64,000 bases of DNA from Candidatus Eisenbacteria bacterium (GTDB lineage Bacteria > Eisenbacteria > RBG-16-71-46 > JAFGJU01): NCBI GenBank assembly GCA_026388185.1, contig JAPLKG010000017.1, positions 62,001 through 126,000 on the forward strand, given 5' to 3'. The notes under the pieces were generated by a model. That model saw only the letters and a list, made by a program, of their open reading frames with translations, ran no database searches and was not told where the DNA came from. How positions within the stretch are numbered: position 1 is the stretch's first letter; each line of letters starts with the position of its first letter. This document shows positions 15,350 through 58,345 of the stretch, one piece after another. Made by a program: the position numbers and the translations under genes.

Positions 15350-15357
15350 GAGAAAAC

Positions 15358-15430: not shown

Positions 15431-15477
15431 CGTCACACTGTGAGAGAACAACTCTCAAAACGCACAGGGAGGTACAG

Positions 15478-35272: not shown

Positions 35273-36139
35273 CTACTGCTTCACCCCGCCCAACGTCAGG
35301 CCGGAGACGAAGTATCGGTTGAGGAAGAGAAACAGTATAACCACCGGCAGGGACACGAGCACGCTTCCCGCGGCATAATTGGCCCACTCTGTCTGGAAGG
35401 TGCTGCTTAGGCTTTCGAGTCCAAGAGGAAGCGTATAGAGAGTTCTCGTGTTGATGATGACCCTGGCCACCATGAACTCCGACCAGGCCGCCATGAAGGA
35501 GAAGATTGCCGTTATCGCCAGGGCAGGCGCCGCGAGCGGAAGAACCACCGTTCGGAAGGCTCTCCAGTACGAGGCTCCGTCTATGAGAGCGGCTTCCTCG
35601 AGTTCCTTCGGAATTGTGTCATAGTAGCCTTTCATGGTCCACACGCAGAAAGGAAGTGCCGTGACCACGTAGGCGATCGCAAGGCCCCCCAGCGAGTCAA
35701 GAAGTTGAAGTCCCTTCATGAGGACGTAAAGGGGAAGAAGCAACATTGTTGCCGGAAACATCTGGGCAATGAGAAGCGAGTAAAGGCCGGACTTTCTCGC
35801 GACGAACTTGAAGCGAGAAAAGGCGTACCCCGCCGTAGCCGCGAGGAAAACACCGATCAGAGTCACAATGCCCGAGACGATGGCGCTGTTTCTGAGCCAC
35901 AGAGGAAATTCCTTCTCAAAGAGAATGGAATAGTAGGCATGGCCCGTGGCGTCCTCAGGGATCAACCGAAGCGACGTGGAGTAAAGTCTGTCAGCAGGCC
36001 GCAAGGAGATCCCGACTATCTGAAGTATCGGATAAAGCGTCGCAAGAGTAATGCAAACAAGCACGACGTGCGCGACGATCGTCTTTATCCTCGCTCCGCT
36101 TGATGCAGACCTTCTCCTGGTAATTCGCGTGGATTTCAT
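35273..36139 (-). CDS. malG: ABC sugar importer permease, MalG type
   Basis: 288 aa, six membrane helices. The EAA loop 'EEAALIDGASYWRAFRTVVLPLAAP' that contacts the ATPase is intact. MalG pairs with MalF to form the membrane channel for maltodextrin-type sugars. Its ATG overlaps the malF stop by four bases, showing tight coupling. Last gene of the ~23 kb glucan operon. No ATPase gene follows, so a shared MalK/MsmX-like ATPase must be encoded elsewhere. Confidence 0.92.
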   Translation of the reverse strand: MKSTRITRRRSASSGARIKTIVAHVVLVCITLATLYPILQIVGISLRPADRLYSTSLRLIPEDATGHAYYSILFEKEFPLWLRNSAIVSGIVTLIGVFLAATAGYAFSRFKFVARKSGLYSLLIAQMFPATMLLLPLYVLMKGLQLLDSLGGLAIAYVVTALPFCVWTMKGYYDTIPKELEEAALIDGASYWRAFRTVVLPLAAPALAITAIFSFMAAWSEFMVARVIINTRTLYTLPLGLESLSSTFQTEWANYAAGSVLVSLPVVILFLFLNRYFVSGLTLGGVKQ

Positions 36140-37035
36140 TCGAACGCCGACTCCGTTATCTTGAAATATCTCATGGAGGCAAACACAAACCCAAGAAGCA
36201 GGAAGAACACAATTACCGAGAAGGCCGCGGCGTAGCTGTACCGGTAATAGGTGAAAGCGGCCTTGTAGATGTACGTCACAAGTATGTGAGTCTTATCGGC
36301 CGGCAGGCCGCCGCCCGTCACCAACCAGATGACGTTCATGTTGTTGAACGTCCAGATGGTTCCAAGGACGACCGCGGGTGCGAGAATCGGTCTGAGCAGG
36401 GGAATCGTCACGTTCCTAAGTTTTCCCAGGGCCCCCGCTCCGTCAAGGTCCGCGGCTTCGTAGAGTTCGTGCGGAATGCTCTGCAGTCCACCCAGCGCCA
36501 CGATCATCATGAACGGAAAACCCAACCACACGTTTGTGATAATCGGCGCGACGAAGGCCCACGTGGCGTCGGAAAACCATGGAATCGGAGCGTGATGAAA
36601 CACCTTCATCAAGATAAGGTTGACCGACCCGTACTCGTGGTTGAACATCCCCTTCCACGTGAGTGCGCTTATGTACTGCGGGACCGCCCACGGAAGAATG
36701 AGAAGCGAACGGAAAATTCCACCACCGTAAATTCTCCCGTTGAGAATCAAAGCAATGGTGACTCCGATGGTCACGTGGAAGAACACGTTCACGACGGTCC
36801 ACACGACAGTTTTGCCGAATACCCAGTACAGTTCTCTCTGGCCGAAGACTTCGGCGAATTGTCGAAATCCTACAAACGTGGAATCCTGGAAGTGGTACAT
36901 GCTCATGTTCTTGAAAGCGAGGATGAAGTTGTAGATGAGCGGGTAAAGTACCACTATGAGCATCACAATAGCGGTGGGTAGAACGAGCGTGTAGGGAAAA
37001 AGCCTTCTGTCGCTGGTAAAGCGTGACAGGAACAC
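36136..37035 (-). CDS. malF: ABC sugar importer permease, MalF type
   Basis: 299 aa; GTG 37035 uses an AAGGAG lying inside the end of the malE-like gene. Six to seven helices, with the EAA motif 'YEAADLDGAGALGKLRNVTIPLLRP'. It lacks the long periplasmic loop of enteric MalF, like most Gram-positive-type and candidate-phylum homologs. Works with the MalG and MalE partners on either side. Confidence 0.92.
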   Translation of the reverse strand: MFLSRFTSDRRLFPYTLVLPTAIVMLIVVLYPLIYNFILAFKNMSMYHFQDSTFVGFRQFAEVFGQRELYWVFGKTVVWTVVNVFFHVTIGVTIALILNGRIYGGGIFRSLLILPWAVPQYISALTWKGMFNHEYGSVNLILMKVFHHAPIPWFSDATWAFVAPIITNVWLGFPFMMIVALGGLQSIPHELYEAADLDGAGALGKLRNVTIPLLRPILAPAVVLGTIWTFNNMNVIWLVTGGGLPADKTHILVTYIYKAAFTYYRYSYAAAFSVIVFFLLLGFVFASMRYFKITESAFE

Positions 37036-37039: not shown

Positions 37040-38302
37040 CTACTCCTTCATCTTGGTGATCGCCTCGACTGCGGCCTTCTGCATCTTGTTCGCGGCCTCT
37101 TGCGGCGTTATCTCGTTGTTCAGGACATTCTGATACGAGGGACGCATGCTGTCCCAGATCGCTCTCATCTCGGGCACCACGGGCATCCTGCGGCCCAGTT
37201 TGACCTGAGCCAGAGACGTTTCAAGAAACGGATCGCCCCTGGCGAGCAGGCTTTCAGCCGCCGCCTTCCTCGCGGGCAGCATCTTGATCTTCGTCGCGCT
37301 TTCGACCTGATTCTCGGTGGACGTAAGAAAATCGACGAGCTCTTTCACAATTGGAAGCTTCTTCTCGGGACAGTTCACATTCACGGAGTATCCTTTTGAC
37401 GAGACCATAGGCGTCGGCCAGAGTCCTGTCTCCGACATCCTGGGTATCGGCGTCAGCCCTACGTCAATACCTGCGGAGATGTACCCTCCCCAGGACCACG
37501 GGCCGTTTATTATCATTGCAGCTTTCCCCTCTTTGAAAAGCGTTTCGGCCTGCTGGTAGTCGCATTCTGTAGGCATGACGCGGTACTTTATCCGCAAGTC
37601 TCTCACGAACGCGAGCGCCTTTGTCATGGCAGGAGAATCAAGCGTCGGATTGTTGTTCTTGTCCATTACCCAACCGCCGAAGCCACCAAGGAAAGGCACC
37701 AGCCAGAAGGGTTCGACAGCGTTAAATACGAGGCCGTACCTATCAGTGACGCCGTCGTGATTCTCGTCAACAGTGTTCTGCTTGGCGAAGGCGATGAGCT
37801 CATCGCTGGTAGCAGGCGGTCTCTTCACAAATTTCTTGTTGTACGCGAGGGCAAGATGATTGCCAACCTGGTCTGGAACGGCGTAGATGTGCCCGTCCAG
37901 GGTGTCCAGGCTCCCCTCTATGAACTGGGCGAAAAAGGCGGCGCCGAAGAGTTCGTCCAGCGGGCGGACTAGTTTCATGACTGAGAACGGCCCGATCTGA
38001 TCCGACGGGCCAAAGACAAGGGCGGGGCCACCGCCGGCCAAGGCCGCCGTCTGATACTGCGTTCTGAGTAGCTCGGTCTCGAAATGGAGTCTTGTGATGG
38101 GCACATCGGGGTGAGTTTTCTGGAAAACCGCGATCCTGGCGTCTAGAAGCTTCTGCTCCTCGGGGTCCATCTGCTCCCAGACCGCTATTCCCTTTTCCTC
38201 TTTCTTGGCACAGCCGCCCGCGAGGTAAAGCACGGCCGGCACGGCAAGAACAGCCGCAAGAACGCACAAGAATACGCGGAGAAATCGCACGGACTTCATC
38301 AT
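37040..38302 (-). CDS. malE: Sugar-binding lipoprotein of ABC importer, MalE type
   Basis: 420 aa. Signal with lipobox 'LYLAGGC' near residue 31, so a membrane-anchored periplasmic binding protein. 'IAVWEQMDPEEQKLLDARIAVFQKTHPDVPIT' and 'AMIINGPWSWGGYISAGIDVGLTPIP' are typical of family-1 solute-binding proteins for maltose/maltodextrin. Gene context (amylases, CBM48 proteins, MalF, MalG) supports malto-oligosaccharide as ligand. AAGGAG precedes ATGATG; only 13 bp separate it from the amylase gene upstream. Confidence 0.92.
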   Translation of the reverse strand: MMKSVRFLRVFLCVLAAVLAVPAVLYLAGGCAKKEEKGIAVWEQMDPEEQKLLDARIAVFQKTHPDVPITRLHFETELLRTQYQTAALAGGGPALVFGPSDQIGPFSVMKLVRPLDELFGAAFFAQFIEGSLDTLDGHIYAVPDQVGNHLALAYNKKFVKRPPATSDELIAFAKQNTVDENHDGVTDRYGLVFNAVEPFWLVPFLGGFGGWVMDKNNNPTLDSPAMTKALAFVRDLRIKYRVMPTECDYQQAETLFKEGKAAMIINGPWSWGGYISAGIDVGLTPIPRMSETGLWPTPMVSSKGYSVNVNCPEKKLPIVKELVDFLTSTENQVESATKIKMLPARKAAAESLLARGDPFLETSLAQVKLGRRMPVVPEMRAIWDSMRPSYQNVLNNEITPQEAANKMQKAAVEAITKMKE

Positions 38303-38315: not shown

Positions 38316-41255
38316 CTACTTCCCCATAATCTTAACGCCCGGTATCTCTACGAGTTTCCCCGTCGCCTTGAAGGCACCGAGAATGTCCTTCTGACTCTGA
38401 CCCGGCGGTACGATCAGGTCGATTATCCCTGGCTCGAGCGAGGAATTGACGCTCCCGCCGAAGCTCCATTCTTGTGACGTTGTCGTGATCGGCCTCACGC
38501 GTCCGGGGCTATAGCCGTCGTGCCCGACCACGAACGCAATTACCTTCCAATTCCGGTCGGGCTTGCCGACGAATTCCACGGGGACTTTCACGGTAATCGT
38601 GCGCGTAAGCGGGTCACCCCACGCCGCAACCCGTGCGCGGGGAATACGTTTCAAATCCACATCGTACAAGCCCACTTCGTCCATGTTCGCCATGACGTAG
38701 TATTCCCATTCCGACCCGGACCCCGCGTTGGCGTTTCTCGCAGTGTAGAGCTGTTTTGCGCCGCTGCCGGGTTTTCCGTCCGTGTCGATATAAAGATCAA
38801 TACCCTGGAGACAGAAGGCAACGTCGCCGCCCCAGGGGTCCGTCAGGTCGCCCGCGATCGACACTCTGAAGAATATGTCGGTGCTGTCCATAGAGACCTC
38901 GAAGTGCTTGGCGTCGTATGCCCCACCTACAAAGACAGCGTTCGTGGGGTACGTGTAGCTGCCTGGGCCGTTGTCGTCGCCGAGAGGGTCGTCCATGGAA
39001 AGGAGAGTCTTCTCTGTACCGCCCGGGAGAGGACCTTTCCCGGCGGCGGACACAGTCGCGGCCCTCGCACCGACTCCAATTATGGATTCCGACAGGTATT
39101 CCGGCGGCTCTTTTCCCATGAGAACGTATGCCTGCTTGAGAGTGTTCCTGAAGGCTTCGTCAAAGCGCTCGTCGTTACCTGAATCCTTGTCTTTTCCGTA
39201 CCACCAGAACCAGTCGCTTCCCTCCGCAGCAAGAAGGAGCTCGTAAACCTGTGCCACCAAGCGTGCGTCAGGCGCCTTCACGGCAGCACCGGCGGCCTTG
39301 CCCCGGTCACCGACCTCCTCCCCTTCGCCGGCGGCCGCGCCAGCCTTCCATTCCTCGAACGCGCGTCTCGCAAGAGTCAGGTCGTCCCAGGCCGCGTCTT
39401 CGTCCGGTTCACCAATCCACGTCGCGAAGGAATGTCCGTCCCACGAACCCGCCCAGAGCTTGTCTACCACCGGGAGGGTCTCGAGAGGGTGGGTTCTCAG
39501 AAACTCGCTGATGGTCGTCGTCTTAACCCAGGATGCCTTCGCAAGTTGAGAATAGAGTGCGCGCAGAAAATCTTTCCCGTCGTTCTCGTAGTTCTGCCAG
39601 GGGTTCTCCCCGTCGAGGATCACAACAACTATGTGATCTTTGTCGGAGTCTGCAAGGTCCCGCTGGATGTTGGAAAGGTTCTTGATAAAATCGTTGGCGG
39701 CCTCGACCGGGTCCACGCGGGCGAACTTGAAGCCTATGTCGTTGGAAAAGCCCGTGTCCCTGAAGACCAGACCAAGCGATGCTCCGTTCTGAGTGCCCCT
39801 GTAAATCGAGAATTTCTCTTCGTCCGTCAGGTTGGTCTTCCCGAGAGACTGGGCGAGATTCTCCATGTCGGTGGCGAACCACTTGAAACCTTGCGAGGCA
39901 ACGACGTCGATTATTTCCTGCGCAACCGCTCCTTCTCCCGGCCACATTCCTTCCGGTTTTCTGCCGAACCTCTGTTCGTAGAACGCAGAGGCCCTCCTCA
40001 CCTGCTCGGTGGCGTCTCCAGGAAAACTGAACCGCTCGGAGGGCAGCACCACGTTAGGCATCGCGACCTGCGCGAGGTCTGTGTCATAAATGAGAGGGAG
40101 AATGGGGTGATAGAAGGGCGTCGTCGTGACCTCGATCCGGCCCGCGTCTTGGAGTTTCTTGTGAATCGGAATCACGTTCCGCATGATTTCAATCTGCGCG
40201 TCAAGAAGTCTCTTCTTCTCGGCCTCGGTAAAACCCTGCCCCTTCTTGACCAAATCAGAGAGATCAATCTTCAAGCCCGAGGGAAGCTCGACCCCACCCT
40301 TGAGGAAATCGGGGTCCATCCAGGCCAGATTGAACCAGACCTGCAGGTCGAGAAAGTCTTGGGCCGAATATCGCGGCACGCTCTCGAGCAGCTTCTCGGG
40401 GCTAAAGCCGACCCGCCTGTCTCTGAGCTCCCGGTAGCGAGGAAAAGGGTCTATCTGGTTGGACCAGTTTGCGTCAAAGAATCTCGCGAGCAAGAACACC
40501 TTGTCGTCCTGCGTAAGCGCACTCGCCGGCCTGGCGCTCAGTCTGAGCATCTTGTCTGTGGGACCGTTTGTCTCGTAACCTCGGACTATTTCCTCCATTT
40601 GAGTGAGAAGAACCGGCGTGAGGTTGACAGAGTACTTGAGTCCTTCGAACTCCTGGACCATCGCCGCCATGTCGTAGTAGTCTTTCGCGCAGTGAAGCCT
40701 GACCCACGGGTCGAGGTATTCCCCGCTGACCGAATCTCGTTCGTAACGAGGCTGATGCTGATGCCACAAGATCGCGAAGTAGATGGGTCTGCCCGACGCA
40801 GTAATCTGTCCCACTATCGGAGCCGGAGATGGTTTCTTTGCAACTTCCATTGAGACCTCACCGTTCTCGAGGACCACGATCACCGAGTTGGATCCGCCGT
40901 AGGGATCCGGCGCCTTTGCCGGATTCGCAGGATCTTCCTTCCACGTTCCATCTATGACGAACTTATATTCGTAACGGCGAGGGCTTAGCCTCTTCGTGAG
41001 CCTGAAGATTCCGTCTTCGTCCTTCGTCATGAGGTCGGCCTCCGGAGCCCAGTCGTTGAACTCTCCTGACAGATAGACGGCCTTCGCGTCGGGAGCATAG
41101 AATTGGAATTCAATTCCCTCCCCCGTCTTCTGAGGTGGCCCCGCAAATGCAGGCGGCGCTTGGAACGGTGCCGTGGCGGCAAACGCGGCGAGAAATACCA
41201 CGAGAAATGCAGTCCCCAGCAAGACCAGGTTTGGCCGTGACTGTGTCTCTTTCAT
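38316..41255 (-). CDS. Secreted GH57 alpha-amylase/pullulanase-like enzyme with CBM48 and glucodextranase-C-like modules
   Basis: 979 aa from ATG 41255 with AAGGAGGG four bases upstream; the 13-codon extension is dropped. Signal peptide (to ~38); CBM48-like module (~38-135; 'AVYLSGEFNDWAPEADLM', 'YEYKFVIDGTWKEDP'); GH57 domain (~155-590) starting 'FAILWHQHQPRYERD' with nucleophile motif 'EGMWPGEGAVAQEI' and 'VILDGENPWQNY'; helical region; glucodextranase-C/DOMON-like module (~765-965; 'DDPLGDDNGPGSYTYPTN'). The 'HQHQP' plus 'MWPGEG' pattern fits the larger amylopullulanase-type GH57 group acting on starch or glycogen. No sorting domain, so probably periplasmic, just upstream of the importer genes it would feed. 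Confidence 0.92.
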   Translation of the reverse strand: MKETQSRPNLVLLGTAFLVVFLAAFAATAPFQAPPAFAGPPQKTGEGIEFQFYAPDAKAVYLSGEFNDWAPEADLMTKDEDGIFRLTKRLSPRRYEYKFVIDGTWKEDPANPAKAPDPYGGSNSVIVVLENGEVSMEVAKKPSPAPIVGQITASGRPIYFAILWHQHQPRYERDSVSGEYLDPWVRLHCAKDYYDMAAMVQEFEGLKYSVNLTPVLLTQMEEIVRGYETNGPTDKMLRLSARPASALTQDDKVFLLARFFDANWSNQIDPFPRYRELRDRRVGFSPEKLLESVPRYSAQDFLDLQVWFNLAWMDPDFLKGGVELPSGLKIDLSDLVKKGQGFTEAEKKRLLDAQIEIMRNVIPIHKKLQDAGRIEVTTTPFYHPILPLIYDTDLAQVAMPNVVLPSERFSFPGDATEQVRRASAFYEQRFGRKPEGMWPGEGAVAQEIIDVVASQGFKWFATDMENLAQSLGKTNLTDEEKFSIYRGTQNGASLGLVFRDTGFSNDIGFKFARVDPVEAANDFIKNLSNIQRDLADSDKDHIVVVILDGENPWQNYENDGKDFLRALYSQLAKASWVKTTTISEFLRTHPLETLPVVDKLWAGSWDGHSFATWIGEPDEDAAWDDLTLARRAFEEWKAGAAAGEGEEVGDRGKAAGAAVKAPDARLVAQVYELLLAAEGSDWFWWYGKDKDSGNDERFDEAFRNTLKQAYVLMGKEPPEYLSESIIGVGARAATVSAAGKGPLPGGTEKTLLSMDDPLGDDNGPGSYTYPTNAVFVGGAYDAKHFEVSMDSTDIFFRVSIAGDLTDPWGGDVAFCLQGIDLYIDTDGKPGSGAKQLYTARNANAGSGSEWEYYVMANMDEVGLYDVDLKRIPRARVAAWGDPLTRTITVKVPVEFVGKPDRNWKVIAFVVGHDGYSPGRVRPITTTSQEWSFGGSVNSSLEPGIIDLIVPPGQSQKDILGAFKATGKLVEIPGVKIMGK

Positions 41256-41330
41256 CAGGCCCTCCTTCGGCGCACAAGGTGAGTCCTCATCCATGCCGAC
41301 TTCTAAGACACTATTTCCGAGAGAAAACGG

Positions 41331-42098
41331 TTACTCGCTGACATCTATGACGGAGTTGAAGCCGCCGTACGGGTCGGCAACCTTGTTGGGGTTATCGGGA
41401 TCCACGTTCCACTGCCCGTCCACAACAAACTTGTACTCATGCTTTCCCGCAGGGATGGCGATCTTGATTCTCCAGATTCCGTCTTGGCCCTTCTTCATCC
41501 CGTCCTTGTCACCAGCCCAATTATTGAAATCACCGGCCAAATACACGGATTTGGCGTCCGGCGCGCTCAAGGTGAATTCAACTTCACTTCCCTTAGGCGC
41601 GGCTCTCGTCCCAGCGTTCTCGAGAGAGGCAGCGAGAGAAAGGTAGGGCACGTCGTACTTGATGCCTTCGGGCACCACAAGGAACGTGTTCTGATAACCA
41701 GTTTCATTCTCTATGTCTGGATTGTTTGGATCCTTCTCCCATCTCACCTGATCTACTACAAACTTGTACTGATACCTTCCCGGTGGAAGAGGAACGTAGA
41801 TGCTCCAGATTCCCTTTTCGTCCGACGACATCGGGTCAATGTTGGGATCAAACCTGCCGCCACCCTGCGTCCCTCCCCAGTTGTTGAAGCTTCCGGCAAG
41901 ATTGACCTGGCGCGCGGCGGGCGCCTCGTACTGAAAGATGACTCCCGTGGGAGTGGGGTGCGGCTTGGGTATCCTGGTTCTTATTGCTCTCATCACGGCG
42001 CAGCCGGAGACAAGAAGAACCAGGCAGAAGACGAACAGAACGACGGGGCGATAAGAACCGAGAGCAGGCGCGTGGATTCCAAAGCTACTTCTCTTCAC
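41331..42098 (-). CDS. Lipoprotein with two tandem CBM48-like glucan-binding domains
   Basis: 255 aa taking GTG 42098 as start (AGAGG ten bases upstream); the frame is open to 42140. After the lipobox 'LVLLVSGC' come two domains of about 95 residues with little else: domain 1 has 'VNLAGSFNNWGG' and 'YQYKFVVDQVRWEKDPNNPD'; domain 2 has 'VYLAGDFNNWAGDKDGM' and 'HEYKFVVDGQWNVDPDNPN'. The fold is that of CBM48/AMPK-beta glycogen-binding domains. With no catalytic domain, it is best read as a glucan-binding surface or periplasmic lipoprotein, a functional analogue of SusE/SusF. Binding is inferred; domains and lipobox are seen. Confidence 0.85.
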   Translation of the reverse strand: MKRSSFGIHAPALGSYRPVVLFVFCLVLLVSGCAVMRAIRTRIPKPHPTPTGVIFQYEAPAARQVNLAGSFNNWGGTQGGGRFDPNIDPMSSDEKGIWSIYVPLPPGRYQYKFVVDQVRWEKDPNNPDIENETGYQNTFLVVPEGIKYDVPYLSLAASLENAGTRAAPKGSEVEFTLSAPDAKSVYLAGDFNNWAGDKDGMKKGQDGIWRIKIAIPAGKHEYKFVVDGQWNVDPDNPNKVADPYGGFNSVIDVSE

Positions 42099-42188
42099 GA
42101 AATTCACACCTCTCTTGATGACCGGAGAGCCCTCGCTCACTCGGCGACAGAGAGCTCTCGCCGACGAGATCGCCGCGGAGCCGGGTTG

Positions 42189-44408
42189 CTAGAAGTTTAT
42201 GACACCCATGAGGGTTATCATTGTGACGTCGCTCAAGGCTCGCTCGGCGGCAAACACGTCCACGCCATGCTCCCACATGTAAGCGTCACGCCAGATCTGT
42301 CTGCCGTTTCCGCGGCCCTCCAGAGGAGCGTCCTTATAGTAGACCGGATTCACGTGGTATCCCAATCGCAGCTCTATGCTGGGGCTCGGAGCGTAGACCA
42401 AAGCCACGTATGGGGAAACATAGGAATCCTCCGGCGACGGCTCTTGGCCTTTGTTCGCCGCGTAGACCATCCTCCTCACATCCCACACCGTCGCCACACG
42501 CTGCGTCAGTTCCAATTTTCCCGAGACGATGAGCTCTCGAGTATCATAGCATTGTGACGCATACAATTGGTCCGAGATGGAAAAGCTCGAGAAGAACTGC
42601 CCCTCCGGATTATTCTGGATGTATTCGTAGTCGAGTCCCAGGGTGAGCCTCCCGCCCAAAAGCCCGAGAGAAAACCCCGGCGCCACTCTCCATCGCTCGT
42701 TGGTCTGAGTGGAAGGAACCGTCGGAGAAACCGAATCTGCCACGGAATAGGCGCGCTCCATCCTGGTTCTATCAACCTCTATCAGGCCGCTGAGATTCTT
42801 GAACACGAAGCCAAGATCCAGCTCGGTAATGTCGTTGTTTCTCTCGGGCAAAAGCGGAAGCTCTGCGACCGAGAAACCGGAAATCGAGCCGATTCCTGTG
42901 AACGTATTCACGGAGGGATCCGCGAACGGCGCGCGACGAAAGTCAACGTAGAGATCGCCCGCCTTCATCGCCTTGTATCGTTGGATCTCGTGGCTGATCG
43001 AGAGCTTGAGATTGTCGTTGACGTCTCTCTCGAGAAGCGCCTTGACCCGGTGGCCCGAGTCTTCGCCGATCGGAACGTCGATGGAGCCGTTGGCCGTGCT
43101 TGTTCCCTCGAGCCTCTCCTTGTTTCCCACGTCCCATGCGGCGCTCCAACTCCAGTAGGCATATTCGACGGTGCAACGCAGCTTTCTGGGCAGCATGAAT
43201 CGAACGTCGGTGGCGAGTGTCTGATCGGCGGTGCCGAGTTCGAACCAGTCACTGGAGGAACCGGTCGCCAGTTTGAAAGAATCTATGTCCGCGCTGCCGT
43301 TGGCACCGCTCACAAAATCCACCCACCAGCCGTTCTGTAGGCGAAGCCAGCTCAGACCAGCGCGAACCAGGCCGGATCTCAGCTCCTTCGTCAACCTCGC
43401 GCCCATAACGTCCGTGCCGGTGTCGTCGTACGTAGAAGGATTGTTGAATCGGTCAAAATCGTAAACGTCGGTGTACATCATGGTGCCTTCGACACCCAAT
43501 CCGTGCGCCGTGAAAACGGCGCCCTGAGTGCCGCGGCCGTAGTCCAAGTGCTCCTCCCTGATCGTTCCCCTCAGGTCCTCGTGGCCCAGCAGCTCGAGAG
43601 GTTCATCAAAGCTGAGAAGTTCCTCGTTGTAGTATCCCTTGATGTCGAAGGCAGAGGTCAGAAGATTCAGGTGGCCGGAATAGATGCTTCCCTGCGTTTC
43701 CTGGAGTGTTCCCGTGCCCGTGTCGAATTGGATTCGCACCGACCCGCCGACGTTGTCACTCGCTTTCACGTTGACGTCCATGTTGAACTCGTGCTCCGGC
43801 CTCGTGAGTCTGAGTCGTTCATCGCCGGCAACATCAGATTGCGCGGGATATGTAGCTCTGAAGTAACCGTTTATTGCAACTCTTGACCCCAACGAGGTGT
43901 TCGAGAACTTGCGCACGGTGGGTTTCTCGACCAGGTTGCCTTCCGCGTCTATTTCGATTTGAGAGTTCCCGTTGTCTCCAACCACGATGGGATTGTCGGG
44001 ATCTGCTATCCAGCTACTGCCGTTGACGACGAACTTGTACTCGTACTTGCCGGGACCCAGAGCCATGGCGACCCCCCAGACTCCCTTGCCGTCCTTCGTC
44101 ATGGGATTGGTGGTGGTACTCCAATTGTTGAATCCGCCGGCCACACTGACGCTTGCCGCACCCGGGTCTTCGTACGTGAACTCGTACCCGAGCGCCGTCT
44201 TCTGGACGGCGGCGGTACAGTAAGGGACCACCGCAAGGACGATGACCAAAGCGAGAAGAAAACCTACGGGAAAGGGTCCTCCGGGCATGGGGCTTCCTGG
44301 CAACTCCCCGCCCGACCTCATCCCGGACTTTCTATGCGGTTTCTTGCCCCTCGTTTTGCCGGACCTCTTGTTCGCCTTTTCTCTTGACCGCCGTGTCCGC
44401 TTCTTCAT
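42189..44408 (-). CDS. Outer-membrane beta-barrel protein with N-terminal CBM48-like domain
   Basis: 739 aa. ATG 44408 has GAGAGGGG seven bases upstream. An unusually basic N-tail (about 30 residues, 'KKRTRRSREKANKRSGKTRG') precedes the hydrophobic signal (~48-66). CBM48-like domain (~70-160; 'VSVAGGFNNWSTTTNPM', 'YEYKFVVNGSSWIADPDNP'). The rest (~165-739) is alternating beta-strand sequence with many aromatic girdles, ending '…TLMGVINF'; the final Phe is the outer-membrane barrel signature. Likely a glucan-capturing porin that brings malto-oligosaccharides across the outer membrane. I do not know a named family with this fusion. Function is inferred from architecture and operon. Confidence 0.8.
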   Translation of the reverse strand: MKKRTRRSREKANKRSGKTRGKKPHRKSGMRSGGELPGSPMPGGPFPVGFLLALVIVLAVVPYCTAAVQKTALGYEFTYEDPGAASVSVAGGFNNWSTTTNPMTKDGKGVWGVAMALGPGKYEYKFVVNGSSWIADPDNPIVVGDNGNSQIEIDAEGNLVEKPTVRKFSNTSLGSRVAINGYFRATYPAQSDVAGDERLRLTRPEHEFNMDVNVKASDNVGGSVRIQFDTGTGTLQETQGSIYSGHLNLLTSAFDIKGYYNEELLSFDEPLELLGHEDLRGTIREEHLDYGRGTQGAVFTAHGLGVEGTMMYTDVYDFDRFNNPSTYDDTGTDVMGARLTKELRSGLVRAGLSWLRLQNGWWVDFVSGANGSADIDSFKLATGSSSDWFELGTADQTLATDVRFMLPRKLRCTVEYAYWSWSAAWDVGNKERLEGTSTANGSIDVPIGEDSGHRVKALLERDVNDNLKLSISHEIQRYKAMKAGDLYVDFRRAPFADPSVNTFTGIGSISGFSVAELPLLPERNNDITELDLGFVFKNLSGLIEVDRTRMERAYSVADSVSPTVPSTQTNERWRVAPGFSLGLLGGRLTLGLDYEYIQNNPEGQFFSSFSISDQLYASQCYDTRELIVSGKLELTQRVATVWDVRRMVYAANKGQEPSPEDSYVSPYVALVYAPSPSIELRLGYHVNPVYYKDAPLEGRGNGRQIWRDAYMWEHGVDVFAAERALSDVTMITLMGVINF

Positions 44409-44476: not shown

Positions 44477-45988
44477 TCAGTAGTACATCTTGAGGAAGAG
44501 TTTGACGTATCTCTGCGTGCTGGCGTTACTATCCCATTGCACGAAATCATCGTCGTTGACGAGGTCGTTACTCTGGTCCGGATTTCCGAATTCGACGAAG
44601 CCTTCTCCGCTCGTCCAGCCGGTGTACCTCAGTTGCAGGAACACCGTCTGGCGGGACTGCGTCGGCACATTGACGTTCATCACCCTCGAGTAGAACTTCC
44701 ACTTGTCGGAAAGGTTAACGCTCATCTCGAAGCCGTAGGCTTCAAGTTGGTATATTGTGTTGATGTCCTTCACTCTGAGCTGCGTGCGAATCCTGGCGAG
44801 TCTGTTCTCTCCCGCCACTTCGAAGAGGAAATTCGGGTAGATTCCATTGTTGTCCCTGTAATATCTGTACTCGGCCCTGGACGTGAAGCCTCTCACAAAC
44901 TCGACGTAGACTTCACCGACGCTCTGACTCTTACCCCACAATTGCCCCTTCGAATCCCTGAGCCGGAAGGCTCTGTAGTCATATCTGGACGCCTTGAGAT
45001 TGACCGCCTTGGTCGGAATACGATAATTCGTCTCTACGTAGTATCCCTTGTAATCGTCGTCCGACTCGCGATTTGACATGCCGGTGTAGAAGTTGGTCTC
45101 GTAGTATTGATAGGAAGCCACGTTGTAGAAGTCGCCCACACTGAAATCTCTTATTTCAGTCTTGAACCCGTTCGTGAGAGGGTTCTCAATCGCGTCGAGC
45201 CACCTGCCCGAGATGTTCCTCCCGACCTCGGTCGCCAACGTGACTCGTCCGAAACGCGACAAAGTTGGAACAAGGTGTCCCAGCGCCAGCTCTATGTCCG
45301 CGGCGACGACCCTGTCGTAGTCGTGTACGTCGGAGCCGAAGTTGTGATTTGCCAGGGTGGCGCCGATCACAAGTTTGTCGTGGAGAAAAGGTCTCTTGCC
45401 CCTGAACGCGACGTTGTCCTCGCCGCTCCTCTTCTGACTGTAGTAGCTCACTCCGTTGAAGTTCTTGAGTCCCCAGAAGTCAAGCCGAATCCCCTGGGCG
45501 CGCGGGCCGTAGTCGTCGTCCTTCACCCTGTCGGGATTCACGATTTCAAGAAGTGGCTCGGAGAACCAGAATCTGTTTTCCTGAGAGAAAAGAACGGCCT
45601 CGGCGTTTTTCCATTTCGTCCTGATGTGCCCCTCTTTGGCGAAGATAAGATTGTATCGTTTGTAGTCCTTCCACCTGTTGGACTCGGCGCTGAATCTTAA
45701 GAATCCTTCTACGTCTGGCATCGGGGTCGTCCTGAGGGCGAGCTCCAGATAGTGCCGCGGCTCATTGATGCCCCAGGAGCGATCCTCGCCGTTCAGCTCT
45801 GTCTGAGCCTCGTAATACCATTCCAAGGTGGAGACGGCGAACAGAGGGACCACCGCCGACAGGAGGAACGCCGTCGTCAGCAACGTGACCAGCGTGACTG
45901 TGTGACCAAGCTTCATGATCCTTAAAGTGACTCCATCGGAGCGCTTGTTCATGCTCTCGTTCTCTCGCTCTCGCGCCGGCGCACTCAT
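44477..45988 (-). CDS. Outer-membrane beta-barrel protein (unnamed family)
   Basis: 503 aa from ATG 45988, with AGGAGT five bases upstream and seven bases after the PorV-like stop; the longer frame overlaps that gene and is rejected. Signal peptide at ~26-50 ('LGHTVTLVTLLTTAFLLSAVVPLFA'). The rest is amphipathic beta-strand, rich in Tyr/Arg/Asp, with 'LRYTGWTSGEGFVEFGN' and a terminal aromatic ('LFLKMYY'). Probably a barrel pore or scaffold working with the CBM48-barrel protein encoded next. No family name can be given. Confidence 0.72.
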   Translation of the reverse strand: MSAPARERENESMNKRSDGVTLRIMKLGHTVTLVTLLTTAFLLSAVVPLFAVSTLEWYYEAQTELNGEDRSWGINEPRHYLELALRTTPMPDVEGFLRFSAESNRWKDYKRYNLIFAKEGHIRTKWKNAEAVLFSQENRFWFSEPLLEIVNPDRVKDDDYGPRAQGIRLDFWGLKNFNGVSYYSQKRSGEDNVAFRGKRPFLHDKLVIGATLANHNFGSDVHDYDRVVAADIELALGHLVPTLSRFGRVTLATEVGRNISGRWLDAIENPLTNGFKTEIRDFSVGDFYNVASYQYYETNFYTGMSNRESDDDYKGYYVETNYRIPTKAVNLKASRYDYRAFRLRDSKGQLWGKSQSVGEVYVEFVRGFTSRAEYRYYRDNNGIYPNFLFEVAGENRLARIRTQLRVKDINTIYQLEAYGFEMSVNLSDKWKFYSRVMNVNVPTQSRQTVFLQLRYTGWTSGEGFVEFGNPDQSNDLVNDDDFVQWDSNASTQRYVKLFLKMYY

Positions 45989-45995: not shown

Positions 45996-46952
45996 CTAGA
46001 ATCTGAGAGACGCCGAGAGTCTGTAGATGTTTCCGATTCTCCTCGTAGAAAGCAACGATATGTCAACCCCGACCGGATCCACGAAGAGCCCCCATCCCAC
46101 TGTGGCGTGCCCCCCGTCGTAACCCGCTCGCAGTGCGAATACGTCGTAAAACCAGACCTCCGTTCCACCGTGAAGCGTGAATTTAGAATCGTAATAGTCG
46201 GGGACAAAACTCCTTCGCCTCACCTCGCCGGTCAAGAGCATCGTGCCTCTGAACAGATACGACGCGCCGAGAGAAAACTCGCGCGGCACCTTGTCCGGGG
46301 CGGACGTCGTGGAAATGAGCTTGATCTCAGGTTCGACAATGTTCCTGACCGAGAAGCCGCCCCTCATGTTTCCCCTCTTATAGAAGAGCGAGGCGTCCGC
46401 GCTCCACGAATTGTCAGCGCCCTTGAAATTAGGATCGTTGTAATATTCGTAGCCCGGAGCCGAGACCGAGAAGCGCTTGAGAGTGACTCCGGCAGAGACT
46501 CCGTTCCTGATTTCGTGAGCAACGGAGATCAAGATGTTGTCCTCGCTGTAGACGTCCGTGAGTTCCGTTCTCATCCAGGCGAATCCCAGACCCATCTTGC
46601 CGGCCCGGACTGTCTTGGAGACGGCAAAATAGTCGTTTCGCAAGCCGTCGACGGAGTAGATTCTGTTTATCATACCCGTCATCTCGAAAGAAATCTTCTG
46701 GGTGAGACCCGCAGGGTTCCAGACGACGGCATTTGCATCGTCGGCCACACCCACGAAGGCACCGCCTATTGCGAGAGGTCTTGCACCCACGTCCGGGTTC
46801 ACAAAATCTGCGCGCGCCGCGGAGAAAACAAAGGCCGACGACAGAAGAGTCACCAGCAAGATCACAGGCACACCGCAACCCACCGTGCCACGTCTCGCTC
46901 CGACTCGCACTATTGCCTCACGAATATCTTCGACTCCGGTGCGACGCCTCAT
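45996..46952 (-). CDS. PorV/PorQ-like outer-membrane protein (FadL-type barrel)
   Basis: 318 aa; its ATG overlaps the upstream stop by four bases. Signal peptide ('VPVILLVTLLSSAFVFSAARA') then 'DFVNPDVGARPLAIGGAFVGVADDANAVVWNPAGL', the hallmark of the PorV/PorQ/UPF0164 group, and a barrel ending '…YRLSASLRF'. In T9SS bacteria PorV shuttles secreted cargo to the attachment complex. Here the preceding gene encodes a protein with a C-terminal sorting-type domain, so PorV-like may help deliver or anchor the glucan proteins. That role is inference. Confidence 0.85.
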   Translation of the reverse strand: MRRRTGVEDIREAIVRVGARRGTVGCGVPVILLVTLLSSAFVFSAARADFVNPDVGARPLAIGGAFVGVADDANAVVWNPAGLTQKISFEMTGMINRIYSVDGLRNDYFAVSKTVRAGKMGLGFAWMRTELTDVYSEDNILISVAHEIRNGVSAGVTLKRFSVSAPGYEYYNDPNFKGADNSWSADASLFYKRGNMRGGFSVRNIVEPEIKLISTTSAPDKVPREFSLGASYLFRGTMLLTGEVRRRSFVPDYYDSKFTLHGGTEVWFYDVFALRAGYDGGHATVGWGLFVDPVGVDISLLSTRRIGNIYRLSASLRF

Positions 46953-49900
46953 TTGATCACCACGACTGCCTTGTTGAGTCTCTCCGCTCTGTTGTATTCC
47001 TGGTCAATGGCTTCAAAACGGACTATGTATATTCCATACGGAACCGTTGTTCCCTCTCCGTCCTTCCCGTCCCAGGATTCACCTTCGATTCTCCCAGGCT
47101 CACTGTAGCTCTTGCGGTCGTATCTTCGCACAAGTTGCCCTCTCATGTCGTATATCTCGATGAGCACACTGGCGGCCTTACTCAGATAAAACGATATCTG
47201 TGTTTCCTCGTAGAGGCCGTCACCGTTCGGCGAGAAGGGGTTCGGTGAGATCGCGACTGAGGAGAGGGTCTTGTCCAGATCGATGCTGAAACGATCTGCG
47301 AAGATCCCGTAGGTTCCCGGCGTTCGAGTCGCGACGCTTACGAGGCCCGGCCTCGACGTCGCATTTCCACCAAAGAGAACCCATCTGGAGGTCTCTTCCT
47401 GCCACCCGTAGATGGCAAGGCCTCTGGCATCGCCGGCTCCAACAGCGTATGCAGGATAGTGAAGGAGAACCGTGAACGGTTCGACAAAATCCGTCAGGGA
47501 CGTGCCGCTTCCCGCCGTGGAGTCCGCCTCTCTCCCGACAATCTCAAAGCTTCTCGCAACGCCCGTGAAGCTACCCATTCCCTGGGGCTTGTGCGACAAG
47601 TCCACGCCGGAAAGCGACGTGAAGACGAGGTCGTACACCTTGGACGTGTCCGGGAGCAGACCGGCGGGTATGACGAGAGCCGAGCCATCCGGTACGACGA
47701 AAGGCACTCCTTGCAGAATGATTTCGCCGGTGAGAGGATCGGCGTATTGTTCAATGTCCGTGAGCAAGTACTGTTCCGGTCGCTCCGTACTCACCTCGGC
47801 CGTGAAGAGCCGGCTTTCGGCAGTGTTCCCGGAACGGTCCGTGGCACTGACCTGCAATTCAAAGTAGAGCTTTCCTTCCACGGAATTCACGACAGAAGTC
47901 ACGTCGGAGAAATCAATGTCGGCGACCCAGAGGTCCTCAAGCAGGTGCGACATCCTGATGGGGCTCGAGAAAGAACCCCTGAGCGGCCTCCACTTGAGGA
48001 AAGCTTCCGCCACCTCGTCGTCATCAGTGACGACGGTCCCGATGACCAGCGGTGCGTTTTCCATCGCAAACCACCTGGTGACGGCAGTGCCGTTCGTCGG
48101 AAAGGCCGATATTGCGGGCGGTGCGTAGTCTTCAAATCGCGTCGCCTCGAGAACGACTGCGACCTGCCCGGCGTTGAATCTTGCCTTGGCGGCATCCGTC
48201 GTGTAGTCGAGCATCTCCCCTTGCGTCTTGCCGGCGAGTTTCCCCTCGCCCGACGAGGTCGCAACATCAATTATGTTTGCGTCCCGCTCCCGGCTGGACT
48301 CCCCGCTCAACCCCCCTCCGAAGTTCCACTCGGTTGCCGAGCCCTCGTTTATCCATCGCACCATCCCGAAATTCTCATCCGTGGACGCTCCGTCGTGCGA
48401 AGACATGACTGCAATAATGTCCCACTTGCTCACGTCTTCGACGGAAGGGTTGCCAAGAATCTCCTTGTTCACGTGCATGTCCATTGTGTTGTCTGCGTAG
48501 TTGGTGCAGAACCAGTAGTCCGCGTCGGACTTGTACTTGGTCCACGAATAGGAATCGTTGCTGCCGTTCGAGGCCAGAGCACCCTTCCACCAGCCGTCCG
48601 CCACAATTGCAAACTCCCACGCATCCCATGCCGCCACGTCGGCCCACCTGTTGGGCAACGCAGTCGTTGCGCCACCCTTCTCGCTGTCGATGAAGATGAC
48701 GGCGTTCTGAAGGTTGAGAGGAACCCATCCGGGGTTCGTACAGGTCGTCGCGGAAGGATATATCGCGTTCCAGTTCGCGGCATTCGGTTCGCTGGGACTC
48801 GTCAAATCGCCGATCGTCACTCTGAAATCGAGCCAGTCTCCCTCGTCTATGATCTCCACGTTTCTCAAGTCGAAAGAGCCGGCGTAAAAGACGGGGTTGG
48901 TGGGATACAGATAGTACAGGCCCGCCTTCCCGTATTGATTGGGACCGTGGTCGTCGTCGCTCGGATCCTCAAAGGACCGGATCAACACCCGCTCCACGGC
49001 AATCTCGAGAAGAATCGACGCCGTGCTCTTTGAACGATTGGAATCGTCCCTCGCCGTGATTGTGAGAGTGTGAACCCCGCCGGGCACGGAGTCGGAGACG
49101 GTGAACGCGTAGGAGTAGACCGCGTCGCCCGTCGTCGCGTCTCCGTTTGTGCCGTCGTCGTAAAGACGCTGGACCGAACTGCCCCCGATTGCACTCAGGT
49201 CGACCGTGACGTCTCCGACGCCATCATCTCTCGGGGTGATCGAGGCCAGTACGCGGACTACTTCTCCGGTCGACGCGGGCGAAGGTGCGACAGCGGCTCC
49301 GGAGATGACGGGCGCCTGCGGCAACGCCGCGAGTTTCAAAGAACCGTAGTTGTGTAACCTCACAGTATCAATAGCGGTTTCCCACCAGTTGCCCGTCATG
49401 TCGTGCGTGCTGTCTTGAGGGCAGGAATCAAGAGCGGTCCTCTTCGCGCTTGGCTCGTCCATGCAATAGGCCTCGACTCTGAGCGAATCTCCGACGGCTA
49501 GACCCATGACCTGACGCGGCACCGATATGTGCACACCTGTGCCGTCGTGTCGAGTCCAGGAGGCGGCATTCTTGTTCGAGTTCGACGCATCCGTCGTCCA
49601 GGTTTGAGCGGCCAGGTCCCAGAAGCTGTCGATTCCCGGGCCCGCCCATCTGCGGAAATCGGCGTAATCGTTCCCCGGATCGCCGTCAGAATTCGCCTGA
49701 AACTTGTCCGTGAAGATGAAGTCCGGCTTCAGAGTATGGTAAAACGCGATCGGGAACTTGAAGGTATCGTTAAGCAATCCTTGTTCGTCGCCTTCGGTCT
49801 CGAATATCACGGCCACGTGCGCGCCGGTCCAATCCGACTCGAACGGAACGTAAACTTTGAGAGTATCGTCTTCCAGCCGAACATAGACGCCCGTAAGATC

Positions 49901-52381
49901 CATTCCCACGATGCTGTGGTGCAACGGGTCACTTTCGGGAGCCGACTCGTCCACGGCAACGAGATCCGCCTCAATTGATAGAGTCACTGGTTGGACCGCA
50001 TACGGGGAGTTACCGGAGATTTCGACCGCACCGTACGATTGAGCGGCCGTGGCGAAACCCGAAGCGTGGCCGTTGCCGTCGGTCACGAGAGGACTAGAGA
50101 GCTCCGAGAGCCTTCCGGAGGGTGAAGAGAAAAGTGATATGGAAACTCCGGGTTCTGCAACCTCGTTTCCGAAAGCGTCGGTAATCTGGGCGCCGATCGT
50201 GAAACGCAGTTCCGCGTACACAACCTCGTACTGCGGTTTGAGCTCTACGTAGGTCCCCGGCCCCGGAATTACGGTCACGGACACAGAATTCGTACTGAGC
50301 TTCTGCCCGTTGTAAAGGACGGAATCCGAGACGACGACAAGGCCGGCCTTGCTGGAATAAAACTCAACCTCAAACTGGCCGTTCGTGTCGGTGGTCGTGG
50401 ACGCCGGCGCGAGGGTACCCTCGCCGGAAAGCAGCTTCAGGTCGACCGAAACGCCGCTTTCCGTCGAATTGCTGCCGACCGCGTCCTTGAGCTGCCCCCT
50501 CACTGTCGCCTTTTCCACTCCGCCGGCCTCGATCGCGTCCGGCTCAATCGTGAGTTCGACGCTCACGGGATTTCGCGGGAGAAAACCGACCCTCACGGTT
50601 CCGGGGCTTCCGTATCCGAGGCTCACGGCTGGTGACGCCTTGATGAGGAGGACCTCCACAACGTCGTCGGCCGCGAGCAGCGTGGCCCTCCCACTTTGGA
50701 ACGAGGCCGCAGTGAGAAGCCCCCCGGGAAGTTCCAGGGTGTCTCCGTCGGCCACAATCACGTGACCCAGCGGAGCGAGCGAAGGATCGAGCAGGCTGCA
50801 AGATATGTAGACACTGTCGCTGAAGTGGCTCAGATTGAAGATGTCGAGCTGCCCAAGCGAATCCCTGGCCTCAACGTAGACCGAGACGTAAAGATAGATT
50901 CCGGCGGCCGGCAGGCTTACCGTGCCCAGAACATCGCACGAATCCGGCACCGACTTCGCAAAAACGAATTTCGTCCCTCGGACGGCGTGGAGCGCGATGG
51001 CGCCAGCGTCCGTCGTTCCTCCTCCCGACACGGTGACGGGCAGGGTGACCCTCTGGTATCCCGGTGCAGTAACAACGAGGTCGTACCCGGCGTCAGGCAA
51101 TAGCGAGATCGTAAAGCTTGCGCCTGGAGGCCCCACGCTCACGGGACTCGTCCCGGCCGCGGTCGTAGTGCCGCTCACGTAGGCCGTGATGACGGCCAGC
51201 GCGCCCGGACCATCGGCGAAGCTCAGAGTTCCCGTGATCTTTCCACTCACGTATTGAAGTGTGACATCGTTGCCGACGGATTCGCCTCCTCCCGAGACCG
51301 CGATGTTCTGGAGCGTGCGGCTCACGTAGGAAGAAGCCTCAAATGTGAGGTCATAGTTGCCGTCAGGCAGGTTGCCGATCCGGTAGGCTCCGCCTCCTGC
51401 GGGCGCAGTCGCCTTGCCGGCGACATCGGTCGTGCCCGCACGGAAGGCCGTCACGATCACGACGGTGGTGAGGTCGTCGGCGTTGCTCAAAGTGACGGTT
51501 CCGCCGATTGCGCCCGAGGGCGGAAAACCTTCGTCGGGAATTCCGTCGCCGTTTCTGTCACAGAAGGCGAGGAAAAGGTTGCTGAGAATAACCGGCCCCG
51601 CCCCACCGTCCACACCGGGGTTGTCGGGCGCCGAGTCGCATCCTCCGTAGTTGTCGCCGCCGGCCACGAACCCGACAATCCTCAGAATGGCGCCCGGCTT
51701 GATTCTACCCGCTCCCAGTTCGTAGATGGCACGCCACGGAATGGCAATCTCGACCGCACCCTTCACACCGCTTTGCGCGCTGTTCGTGATGCGGCACGAG
51801 GCGCTCATGTCTTGCGTCTGACCGTCTCCGGTTATCCGCCTCACACCCGGCATTCCCGCGTTCCAGCCGGCAATAATGACCTCGGCCTTCCCTTCGCTGA
51901 GCCTGAAATTGCGAGGATACCAGTTGAGATTATTGATGTCGGAATCACCGACGCCGGTGCCGGCGTCTATCAAGACGACCATCGCGTTGTTGTTGACGAC
52001 GTAGATGTAACCGACGTAGAGACTGTCCGCGTCCCACGTGACAAGGATGCTGTCGATTTCGTTCCCCGGCCACTTGGAATCGCTTGGCGAATCCGGGATG
52101 GCCACTTCGTTGCTGTCCCAATCCGCAGAGGTGAAATTGATGTAACCATCGATTTGCGGTGAGTTGTAGCTGGTGGCGTAGGAAACTCGAGGAAGCGAAA
52201 GAGTAAACAGAAGAGCCAACAGAGAAGCGAGCAGAACCGCCGGCAGGGCGGACTGCGCCCGGGAAAGGACTCGATCACGTGTCCCGTCCCGGAGAGTCTT
52301 CCATAGGGACCCCACATCCACGAAGTCGTTCACGAACTCGCGTTCATTCTGCGGAAGAGACGTTCCGATAGAACCCATCAT
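46949..52381 (-). CDS. 1810-aa modular surface protein with sugar-binding-like and Ig-like domains and sorting domain
   Basis: Start at ATG 52381 (the frame opens one codon earlier at TTG); ribosome site weak. Order: signal (~40-70); CBM9/DOMON-like 'IDGYINFTSADWDSNEV' (~72-275); two carboxypeptidase-regulatory-like repeats (~290-465; 'LPDGNYDLTFEASSYVS', 'LLPDAGYDLVVTAPGYQ'); invasin-type Ig domains (~615-830; 'TDTNGQFEVEFYSSKAG'); choice-of-anchor-like Ig (~1030-1130); glucodextranase-C/DOMON-like module (~1135-1420; 'DHGPNQYGKAGLYYLYPTN'); beta domains; FlgD-like C-terminus ('ISPNPFSPNGDGLYEETQIS', 'VPYGIYIVRF'). No catalytic domain seen. Likely a surface scaffold or glucan-capture protein. 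Its stop overlaps the PorV-like start. Confidence 0.8.
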   Translation of the reverse strand: MMGSIGTSLPQNEREFVNDFVDVGSLWKTLRDGTRDRVLSRAQSALPAVLLASLLALLFTLSLPRVSYATSYNSPQIDGYINFTSADWDSNEVAIPDSPSDSKWPGNEIDSILVTWDADSLYVGYIYVVNNNAMVVLIDAGTGVGDSDINNLNWYPRNFRLSEGKAEVIIAGWNAGMPGVRRITGDGQTQDMSASCRITNSAQSGVKGAVEIAIPWRAIYELGAGRIKPGAILRIVGFVAGGDNYGGCDSAPDNPGVDGGAGPVILSNLFLAFCDRNGDGIPDEGFPPSGAIGGTVTLSNADDLTTVVIVTAFRAGTTDVAGKATAPAGGGAYRIGNLPDGNYDLTFEASSYVSRTLQNIAVSGGGESVGNDVTLQYVSGKITGTLSFADGPGALAVITAYVSGTTTAAGTSPVSVGPPGASFTISLLPDAGYDLVVTAPGYQRVTLPVTVSGGGTTDAGAIALHAVRGTKFVFAKSVPDSCDVLGTVSLPAAGIYLYVSVYVEARDSLGQLDIFNLSHFSDSVYISCSLLDPSLAPLGHVIVADGDTLELPGGLLTAASFQSGRATLLAADDVVEVLLIKASPAVSLGYGSPGTVRVGFLPRNPVSVELTIEPDAIEAGGVEKATVRGQLKDAVGSNSTESGVSVDLKLLSGEGTLAPASTTTDTNGQFEVEFYSSKAGLVVVSDSVLYNGQKLSTNSVSVTVIPGPGTYVELKPQYEVVYAELRFTIGAQITDAFGNEVAEPGVSISLFSSPSGRLSELSSPLVTDGNGHASGFATAAQSYGAVEISGNSPYAVQPVTLSIEADLVAVDESAPESDPLHHSIVGMDLTGVYVRLEDDTLKVYVPFESDWTGAHVAVIFETEGDEQGLLNDTFKFPIAFYHTLKPDFIFTDKFQANSDGDPGNDYADFRRWAGPGIDSFWDLAAQTWTTDASNSNKNAASWTRHDGTGVHISVPRQVMGLAVGDSLRVEAYCMDEPSAKRTALDSCPQDSTHDMTGNWWETAIDTVRLHNYGSLKLAALPQAPVISGAAVAPSPASTGEVVRVLASITPRDDGVGDVTVDLSAIGGSSVQRLYDDGTNGDATTGDAVYSYAFTVSDSVPGGVHTLTITARDDSNRSKSTASILLEIAVERVLIRSFEDPSDDDHGPNQYGKAGLYYLYPTNPVFYAGSFDLRNVEIIDEGDWLDFRVTIGDLTSPSEPNAANWNAIYPSATTCTNPGWVPLNLQNAVIFIDSEKGGATTALPNRWADVAAWDAWEFAIVADGWWKGALASNGSNDSYSWTKYKSDADYWFCTNYADNTMDMHVNKEILGNPSVEDVSKWDIIAVMSSHDGASTDENFGMVRWINEGSATEWNFGGGLSGESSRERDANIIDVATSSGEGKLAGKTQGEMLDYTTDAAKARFNAGQVAVVLEATRFEDYAPPAISAFPTNGTAVTRWFAMENAPLVIGTVVTDDDEVAEAFLKWRPLRGSFSSPIRMSHLLEDLWVADIDFSDVTSVVNSVEGKLYFELQVSATDRSGNTAESRLFTAEVSTERPEQYLLTDIEQYADPLTGEIILQGVPFVVPDGSALVIPAGLLPDTSKVYDLVFTSLSGVDLSHKPQGMGSFTGVARSFEIVGREADSTAGSGTSLTDFVEPFTVLLHYPAYAVGAGDARGLAIYGWQEETSRWVLFGGNATSRPGLVSVATRTPGTYGIFADRFSIDLDKTLSSVAISPNPFSPNGDGLYEETQISFYLSKAASVLIEIYDMRGQLVRRYDRKSYSEPGRIEGESWDGKDGEGTTVPYGIYIVRFEAIDQEYNRAERLNKAVVVIK

Positions 52382-52752
52382 CAAACCGAAGTGACCCCTT
52401 ACCCCTCTTTACGAAGTCCCGACCTTCCTTCACACCCCTCGGATGTTCGTGTCCAAATGCTGCTGATTCCCTGGAGGCATTCCAAATGTTGGATACGGCA
52501 CAAGTCGCCCGATTCTCGCGCCCTCATCACTTACCGAAGAACCACAGGCGCCGGATGCCGAAGAGTCATTCTACATCCAGAGCGATCGTCTTGAAACCTC
52601 TTTCTTACCCGAATTCAAGCACCTCGAGAACCGTCCCGGCGAGACTCCACTTTCTGCCGGTCTGCCGTCGAAACCGGCGCAGCGGTTACTTGACGCTGCC
52701 CGCACCGCGAGACGACACTCAGAAACGATCCTCACCGCAGAGTCAGTTCGTA
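52382..52752. other. Gene-free stretch inside the glucan operon
   Basis: About 370 bp between the giant GH57-like gene and the 1810-aa protein gene. No open frame of note, no convincing promoter, and no terminator with a U-tract. A weak GCCGGT/ACCGGC stem lies near 52656-52680. Transcripts may pass through, or a promoter not of sigma70 type may be present. Confidence 0.4.
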
Positions 52753-57093: not shown

Positions 57094-57098
57094 GTTCC

Positions 57099-58169: not shown

Positions 58170-58273
58170 GGGATCGTCAATCGCACGATTCCCTGCAACG
58201 GGCAGATTCCCAGACGAATTGGGACGGACGGAGACTGCGGAAGTGGAACGTCGAGACATGTTTGGTTTTCTCT

Positions 58274-58285
58274 GCTCTGCAGAGC
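58274..58285. promoter_or_regulatory. Candidate repressor operator (palindrome)
   Basis: GCTCTGCAGAGC is a perfect 12-bp palindrome, about 55-65 nt downstream of the predicted start of transcription of the LacI-glucan operon. It could be the site of autoregulation. It does not match the CG-centred dyad at 21151-21164, so both cannot simply be the same operator. Confidence 0.35.
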
Positions 58286-58345
58286 GAACGTCGTTGGAGC
58301 GGTCCAAAAGACAACAACAAAAAAAGACATCTCGCAAGCAGTGGA

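Follow-up and report, generated by a model that had tools for sequence, protein, structure and literature searches.

Within the window (the whole 64,000-nucleotide stretch of Candidatus Eisenbacteria DNA that was analyzed), one gene encodes a protein in which a CBM48 domain sits between a signal peptide and an outer-membrane beta-barrel region of ~570 residues that ends in Phe. This arrangement had been proposed in a sequence-only reading of the DNA, and Pfam, AlphaFold2, and comparison with relatives all confirm it. Here, we will refer to the protein as the CBM48-barrel. The gene lies in a run on the minus strand together with a second barrel gene, BARREL2 (Table 1). From BARREL2 to the MalG-like permease, the successive intergenic gaps by ORF coordinates are 68, 48, 36, 13, and 4 bases, followed by a 4-base overlap.

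Table 1. Features of the CBM48-barrel gene and its run in the window
Feature	Position	Strand	Basis or remark
LacI-type regulator, head of run	57099..58409	-	
1472-aa secreted FG-GAP/FlgD_ig protein, same run	52753..57171	-	
Large secreted protein with Glucodextran_C, Ig-like domains, and T9SS-type C-terminus (CHU_C, FlgD_ig)	46949..52384	-	
PorV/PorQ-family protein	45996..46952	-	NF033709, E 1.1e-21, under its cut-off
BARREL2, second outer-membrane barrel, ~24 strands, no CBM48	44477..45952	-	Start estimated
CBM48-barrel gene	42189..44408	-	Intact; 739 aa in longest reading; candidate starts at ATG codons 1, 30, and 41
Signal peptide hydrophobic core and cleavage region (~aa 46-67)	44208..44273	-	Sequence reading and alignment with relatives
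CBM48 domain (~aa 74-150) with W96, K125, and W133	43959..44189	-	Pfam and PDB sequence matches, alignment
Predicted outer-membrane barrel (aa 176-739), ~22 strands, C-terminal Phe	42192..43883	-	Alignment, AlphaFold2, Foldseek, hydropathy; closure inferred
Lipoprotein with two CBM48 domains	41331..42140	-	Pfam; family found downstream of barrel
CBM48-GH57-Glucodextran_C glucanase	38316..41294	-	Pfam
MalE-like binding protein	37040..38302	-	Pfam, NCBIfam
MalF-like permease	36136..37035	-	Pfam, NCBIfam
MalG-like permease	35273..36139	-	

The large Glucodextran_C protein has 1811 aa and also carries Big_1 and carboxypeptidase-regulatory domains, with no catalytic domain among its Pfam matches.

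A CBM48 domain joined to an unnamed barrel family

The same architecture is found in full-length relatives at 20-62% identity, and an origin by chance or frame artifact was therefore rejected. Less conserved is the very basic N-terminal tail of ~30 residues that the earlier reading had singled out. These residues (1 to 29) are present in the longest ORF but absent from the two closest relatives (identity 61% and 57%), whose n-regions are short and ordinary, and the tail was accordingly rejected as a functional feature of the family. Because in-frame ATGs also occur at codons 30 and 41, with AGGAAG ahead of the latter, several true starts are possible; a G-rich stretch lies ahead of ATG codon 1, and third-position GC does not discriminate among the candidates. 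Judged from sequence, the tail appears to be a question of start site and at most an unconserved long n-region.

A single CBM48/AMPK1_CBM match at ~aa 75-149 exceeds the curated Pfam cut-offs for both PF16561 (E 1.8e-11; 44.5 bits against 26.8) and PF02922 (E 5.9e-9; 36.6 bits against 22.4). The isolated domain matches AMPK beta chains in the PDB (E about 2e-8), and a profile of the whole protein family likewise finds CBM48-type chains there, with AMPK beta best (E 1.6e-16). Residues W96, K125, and W133 align with W100, K126, and W133 of AMPK beta1; those AMPK residues touch beta-cyclodextrin, and mutating them markedly weakens glycogen binding (PMC2642990). W96 and K125 are invariant in all 53 alignment rows, while the W133 position holds Trp in 47 and Tyr in the other 6. 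With its glucan-contact residues intact, the fused CBM48 looks functional. Two tandem CBM48 domains precede the barrel in 13/78 distinct relatives, one example being L200:5768-8491.

We modeled the protein with AlphaFold2 from a 53-sequence family alignment. The model (pLDDT 87.0, pTM 0.78) places an N-terminal beta-sandwich first, then a low-confidence linker, and then ~22 long strands, as counted on the DSSP line. In a Foldseek search, the best 50 PDB matches were all TonB-dependent receptors, which are outer-membrane barrels, with E values down to 5.8e-9. TM-scores reached no higher than 0.44, the mark of a barrel-like fold without close structural kin, so that the strand count and the closure of the barrel depend on the model's secondary structure, and the closed pore is a predicted one. 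Hydropathy alternation in the strands was 2.23, against 1.42 +/- 0.22 after shuffling, and only 1 of 2000 shuffles scored as high. A C-terminal Phe is kept in 75/78 relatives. The protein thus carries a signal peptide, amphipathic strands, a C-terminal aromatic residue, and a predicted barrel fold, as expected of an outer-membrane barrel.

The sequence-only reading had offered no named family with this fusion, and for the barrel the libraries bear it out. The ~570 barrel residues of the protein itself belong to no Pfam or NCBIfam family; 36 barrel rows searched against both gave only a single weak, unrelated NCBIfam match in one row, so that the barrel part alone was recognized by no outer-membrane family in these libraries. 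The barrel profile had no match among PDB sequences at E<=10. Neither the TonB-receptor plug (PF07715) nor the TonB-receptor barrel (PF00593) matched the CBM48-barrel at E<=1 or any of the 36 rows. Elsewhere in the genome these two families do match, at four sites that correspond to four TonB receptors away from the cassette. Membership in the SusC/TonB-receptor family was rejected on these tests. The maltoporin family (LamB/ScrY) gave no Pfam or NCBIfam match either. A T9SS plug protein was also considered and rejected, as the CBM48-barrel has no match to NF052315; the neighboring CBM48 lipoprotein scores 22 bits against that model, whose cut-off is 100.

Profile-profile comparison of BARREL2 with the CBM48-barrel aligned the first parts of the two barrels over ~211 columns (97.4% probability, E 1.5e-11), and this sequence similarity identifies BARREL2 as a distant paralogue. 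Its model (pLDDT 90.3) has ~24 counted strands, and its best structural matches are the FimD/PapC usher pores (E 4e-9, TM 0.5-0.6), along with the export pore AlgE. A Pfam search with 47 BARREL2 rows recognized no family, with one weak Porin_4 match in 1/47.

Distribution of the fusion and its gene cassette

The fusion might have been peculiar to the source genome, a possibility rejected by searches of other genomes with a profile of the barrel alone. The fusion recurs in Eisenbacteria and in metagenome-assembled genomes (MAGs) labeled Latescibacterota, WOR-3, Cloacimonadota, and Elusimicrobia, these phylum names being the labels in MAG titles. In the home phylum, where relatives are labeled Candidatus Eisenbacteria, 17/47 genomes have exactly one copy. 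Sixteen of these copies are complete and all 16 have CBM48; the 17th begins at a contig end. Elsewhere, the profile matched in 55/80 genomes from the phylum of the Latescibacterota-labeled locus (a group that includes Krumholzibacteriota-labeled MAGs), 18/120 from that of the WOR-3 locus, 11/99 from that of the Cloacimonadota locus, and 4/100 from that of the Elusimicrobia locus. CBM48 was present in all 40 barrel-profile loci sampled outside the home phylum, weak matches included.

Loci L050 to L129 were gathered by CBM48 peptide patterns and for that reason cannot show the fusion to be universal; the barrel-only searches are the basis for that statement. Among barrel-profile matches in the gathered loci, duplicates included, 4/97 lack CBM48: BARREL2 twice (one locus, duplicated), a match at a contig end in L111, and a tandem second copy in L099. 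The last (L099:5151-7094) directly follows a copy with CBM48 and, BARREL2 aside, is the only clear member of the barrel family in which no CBM48 was detected. Four genomes reached solely via CBM48 matches, labeled Thermosipho, Deltaproteobacteria, Riflebacteria, and KSB1, yielded no barrel. The CBM48-barrel fusion is a fixed family architecture across several, mostly uncultured phyla.

The neighborhood is conserved as well, in the order Glucodextran_C surface protein, PorV-like protein, BARREL2, CBM48-barrel, and CBM48 lipoprotein. Of 79 distinct loci, 68 have BARREL2 immediately upstream of the CBM48-barrel, and 74 have a CBM48 protein immediately downstream of it. Ten of these 74 downstream proteins carried the label GH57+C2 or GH13+C2 at first, CBM48 being part of those profiles; they are really two-CBM48 proteins of 252-305 aa. 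A strict lipobox pattern occurs in 60/70 downstream CBM48 proteins, and most of the others have Cys at the same place. Twenty additional loci from three phyla gave the same picture, with the downstream CBM48 protein in 20/20 and BARREL2 in 18/20. Many relatives have mal or GH13/GH57 genes nearby. The choice between GH57 and GH13 and the position of the mal genes differ by lineage, mal genes are not adjacent to every relative, and some cassettes show no listed enzyme in view. No PorV-like gene was detected in the WOR-3 loci, which do have the barrel pair and the CBM48 lipoprotein; this indicates that PorV is not essential to the barrel pair.

Where the 1811-aa Glucodextran_C protein and the PorV-like protein both occur, the former lies on the PorV side in every case. 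The FG-GAP protein has strong relatives near the cassette in several lineages (for example, 1612 bits in L074 and 933 bits in L067).

A possible role in alpha-glucan uptake

In outer-membrane barrels, an even number of strands together with a C-terminal Phe strand puts both termini in the periplasm. With both barrel ends facing that compartment, the N-terminal CBM48 would lie either at the mouth on the periplasmic side or within the lumen, so that it probably does not catch glucan at the surface as SusD/E/F do. A tether at the mouth is favored over a lumenal plug because of the tandem CBM48 domains and the low-confidence linker.

This placement bears on the earlier suggestion that one protein might do the whole job of SusCDEF. 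The fusion and the alpha-glucan context fit that suggestion, as does the lack of any SusD (PF07980) match in the whole genome, in a search whose Bacteroides control does match. The suggestion is only partly right, however, because the expected position of the CBM48 is on the periplasmic side or in the lumen and not at the surface. The CBM48-barrel is also one member of a multi-gene cassette, with a separate CBM48 lipoprotein, the paralogous BARREL2, the PorV-like protein, and the large Glucodextran_C protein beside it. The Glucodextran_C protein and the lipoproteins are better candidates for capture at the surface, leaving capture on entry to the fused CBM48.

Since MalEFG and a glucanase are encoded in the same run, passage of maltodextrins across the outer membrane is the simplest role. 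With moderate confidence, we propose that the CBM48-barrel, from an unnamed family, forms a beta-barrel channel in the outer membrane and serves a SusCD-independent uptake locus for alpha-glucans (starch, glycogen, maltodextrin); transport, its direction, and its substrate are what we infer. The polymer would be held by the Glucodextran_C surface protein, which may be exported by T9SS with the PorV-like partner, and by the CBM48 lipoproteins, and GH57 or GH13 enzymes would cut it. Maltodextrins would then cross the outer membrane via the CBM48-barrel, BARREL2, or both, and BARREL2 could be the actual pore. On its flexible linker at the periplasmic mouth, CBM48 may capture the entering chain and pass it to MalE, for import by MalFG.

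One alternative places CBM48 within the barrel, where it would act as a plug or gate that responds to glucan, replacing the plug of TonB receptors in a gated 22-strand receptor-like transporter. The ~22 strands, the TonB-dependent receptors as nearest folds, and the ~90-residue globular domain immediately before the barrel fit this idea. We nevertheless consider it unlikely, given the two tandem CBM48s in some relatives, the linker modeled at low confidence between CBM48 and barrel, and the lack of a match to the plug or TonB-receptor barrel families in a genome whose four such receptors lie elsewhere. Flow might instead be outward, the cassette building or anchoring a surface structure, with the barrels as T9SS/PorV partners or export pores and CBM48 as the anchor for an alpha-glucan or for a surface protein coated with glucan. 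Because the best structural matches of BARREL2 include export pores (FimD, PapC, AlgE), an export direction is possible, and the cassette does contain a PorV-like protein and a T9SS-type Glucodextran_C protein. Against this stand the glucanases and the MalEFG importer, encoded in the run itself or close to it, and the WOR-3 barrel pair and lipoprotein, found with no PorV-like gene detected; we rate it as quite improbable.

CBM48-like folds that do not bind glucan exist, and an ordinary porin could carry a degenerate, non-binding domain of this kind in a context that is coincidental. The contact residues are kept, however, in relatives only 20-30% identical overall, and the CBM48-barrel has a fixed place in alpha-glucan loci, making this reading very hard to credit. 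Beyond the channel itself, we see about an even chance that the fixed cassette represents an undescribed, SusCD-independent mode of alpha-glucan uptake in several mostly uncultured phyla, in which the pore's own CBM48 at the inner mouth draws chains in.

Comparison with known systems

Large fragments of polysaccharide have to get through the outer membrane, a problem whose familiar solutions are SusCD-type receptors and maltoporins. Like SusCDEF of Bacteroidota, the cassette combines an outer-membrane barrel, glucan-binding lipoproteins, and glucanases in one locus. Unlike that system, the genome lacks SusD, the barrel has no plug or TonB-receptor match, a CBM48 is fused at its N terminus, a second paralogous barrel is present, and import is via MalEFG. 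TonB-dependent receptors are the nearest folds of the CBM48-barrel and have about the same number of strands (22), but the protein has neither a plug nor a family match to them, and the TM-scores are low (<=0.44).

In its proposed role, as an outer-membrane channel specific for sugars that supplies a periplasmic binding protein and an ABC importer, the CBM48-barrel resembles LamB with MalEFG in enterobacteria, and ScrY. An N-terminal extension into the periplasm is likewise known from the sucrose porin ScrY, where it has been described as a coiled coil (PMC10542722), whereas the extension here is a CBM48. LamB and ScrY have 18 strands (PMC3706956), compared with ~22 in the model of the CBM48-barrel, which matches no maltoporin family. 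Its N-terminal domain is a clear member of the CBM48 family with binding residues, as in AMPK beta, GlgB, and pullulanases, yet in those proteins CBM48 is joined to kinase-subunit or enzyme domains and not to an outer-membrane barrel. BARREL2, for its part, has the chaperone-usher pores FimD/PapC as its nearest folds, but it has no usher family match and the cassette has no chaperone or pilus genes.

The kinds of components are known: CBM48, outer-membrane barrels, and glycan-use loci. In the libraries searched, no entry names either barrel family, the fusion, or the cassette that recurs across phyla. In the literature covered, with subscription papers and preprints outside its scope, we found no description of CBM48 with PorV, of a glycogen-binding domain with a beta-barrel, or of AMPK1_CBM with the outer membrane. 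Papers that combine CBM48, outer membrane, and porin concern other subjects by their titles and abstracts; one of them, on Fibrobacter, places CBM48 on GH9 enzymes. The recurrence of the fusion and its neighbors across uncultured phyla points to an undescribed way to take up starch fragments. If true, this would be a third arrangement for glycan entry, with two unnamed barrel families, one of them with a fused binding domain, and it would help to explain starch and glycogen feeding by uncultured phyla. In genomes where SusD searches come up empty, the cassette can serve as a genomic marker of alpha-glucan use.

Elsewhere in the window is a second alpha-glucan area, with a CBM48-GH13 amylase (15322-17628, plus strand) and a secreted Glucodextran_C-GH57 protein with a FlgD_ig end (8891-12331, minus strand). 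On the plus strand at 5663-8894, an acetate/butyrate-kinase-type gene is followed by two phosphate acetyl/butyryl-transferase-type genes.
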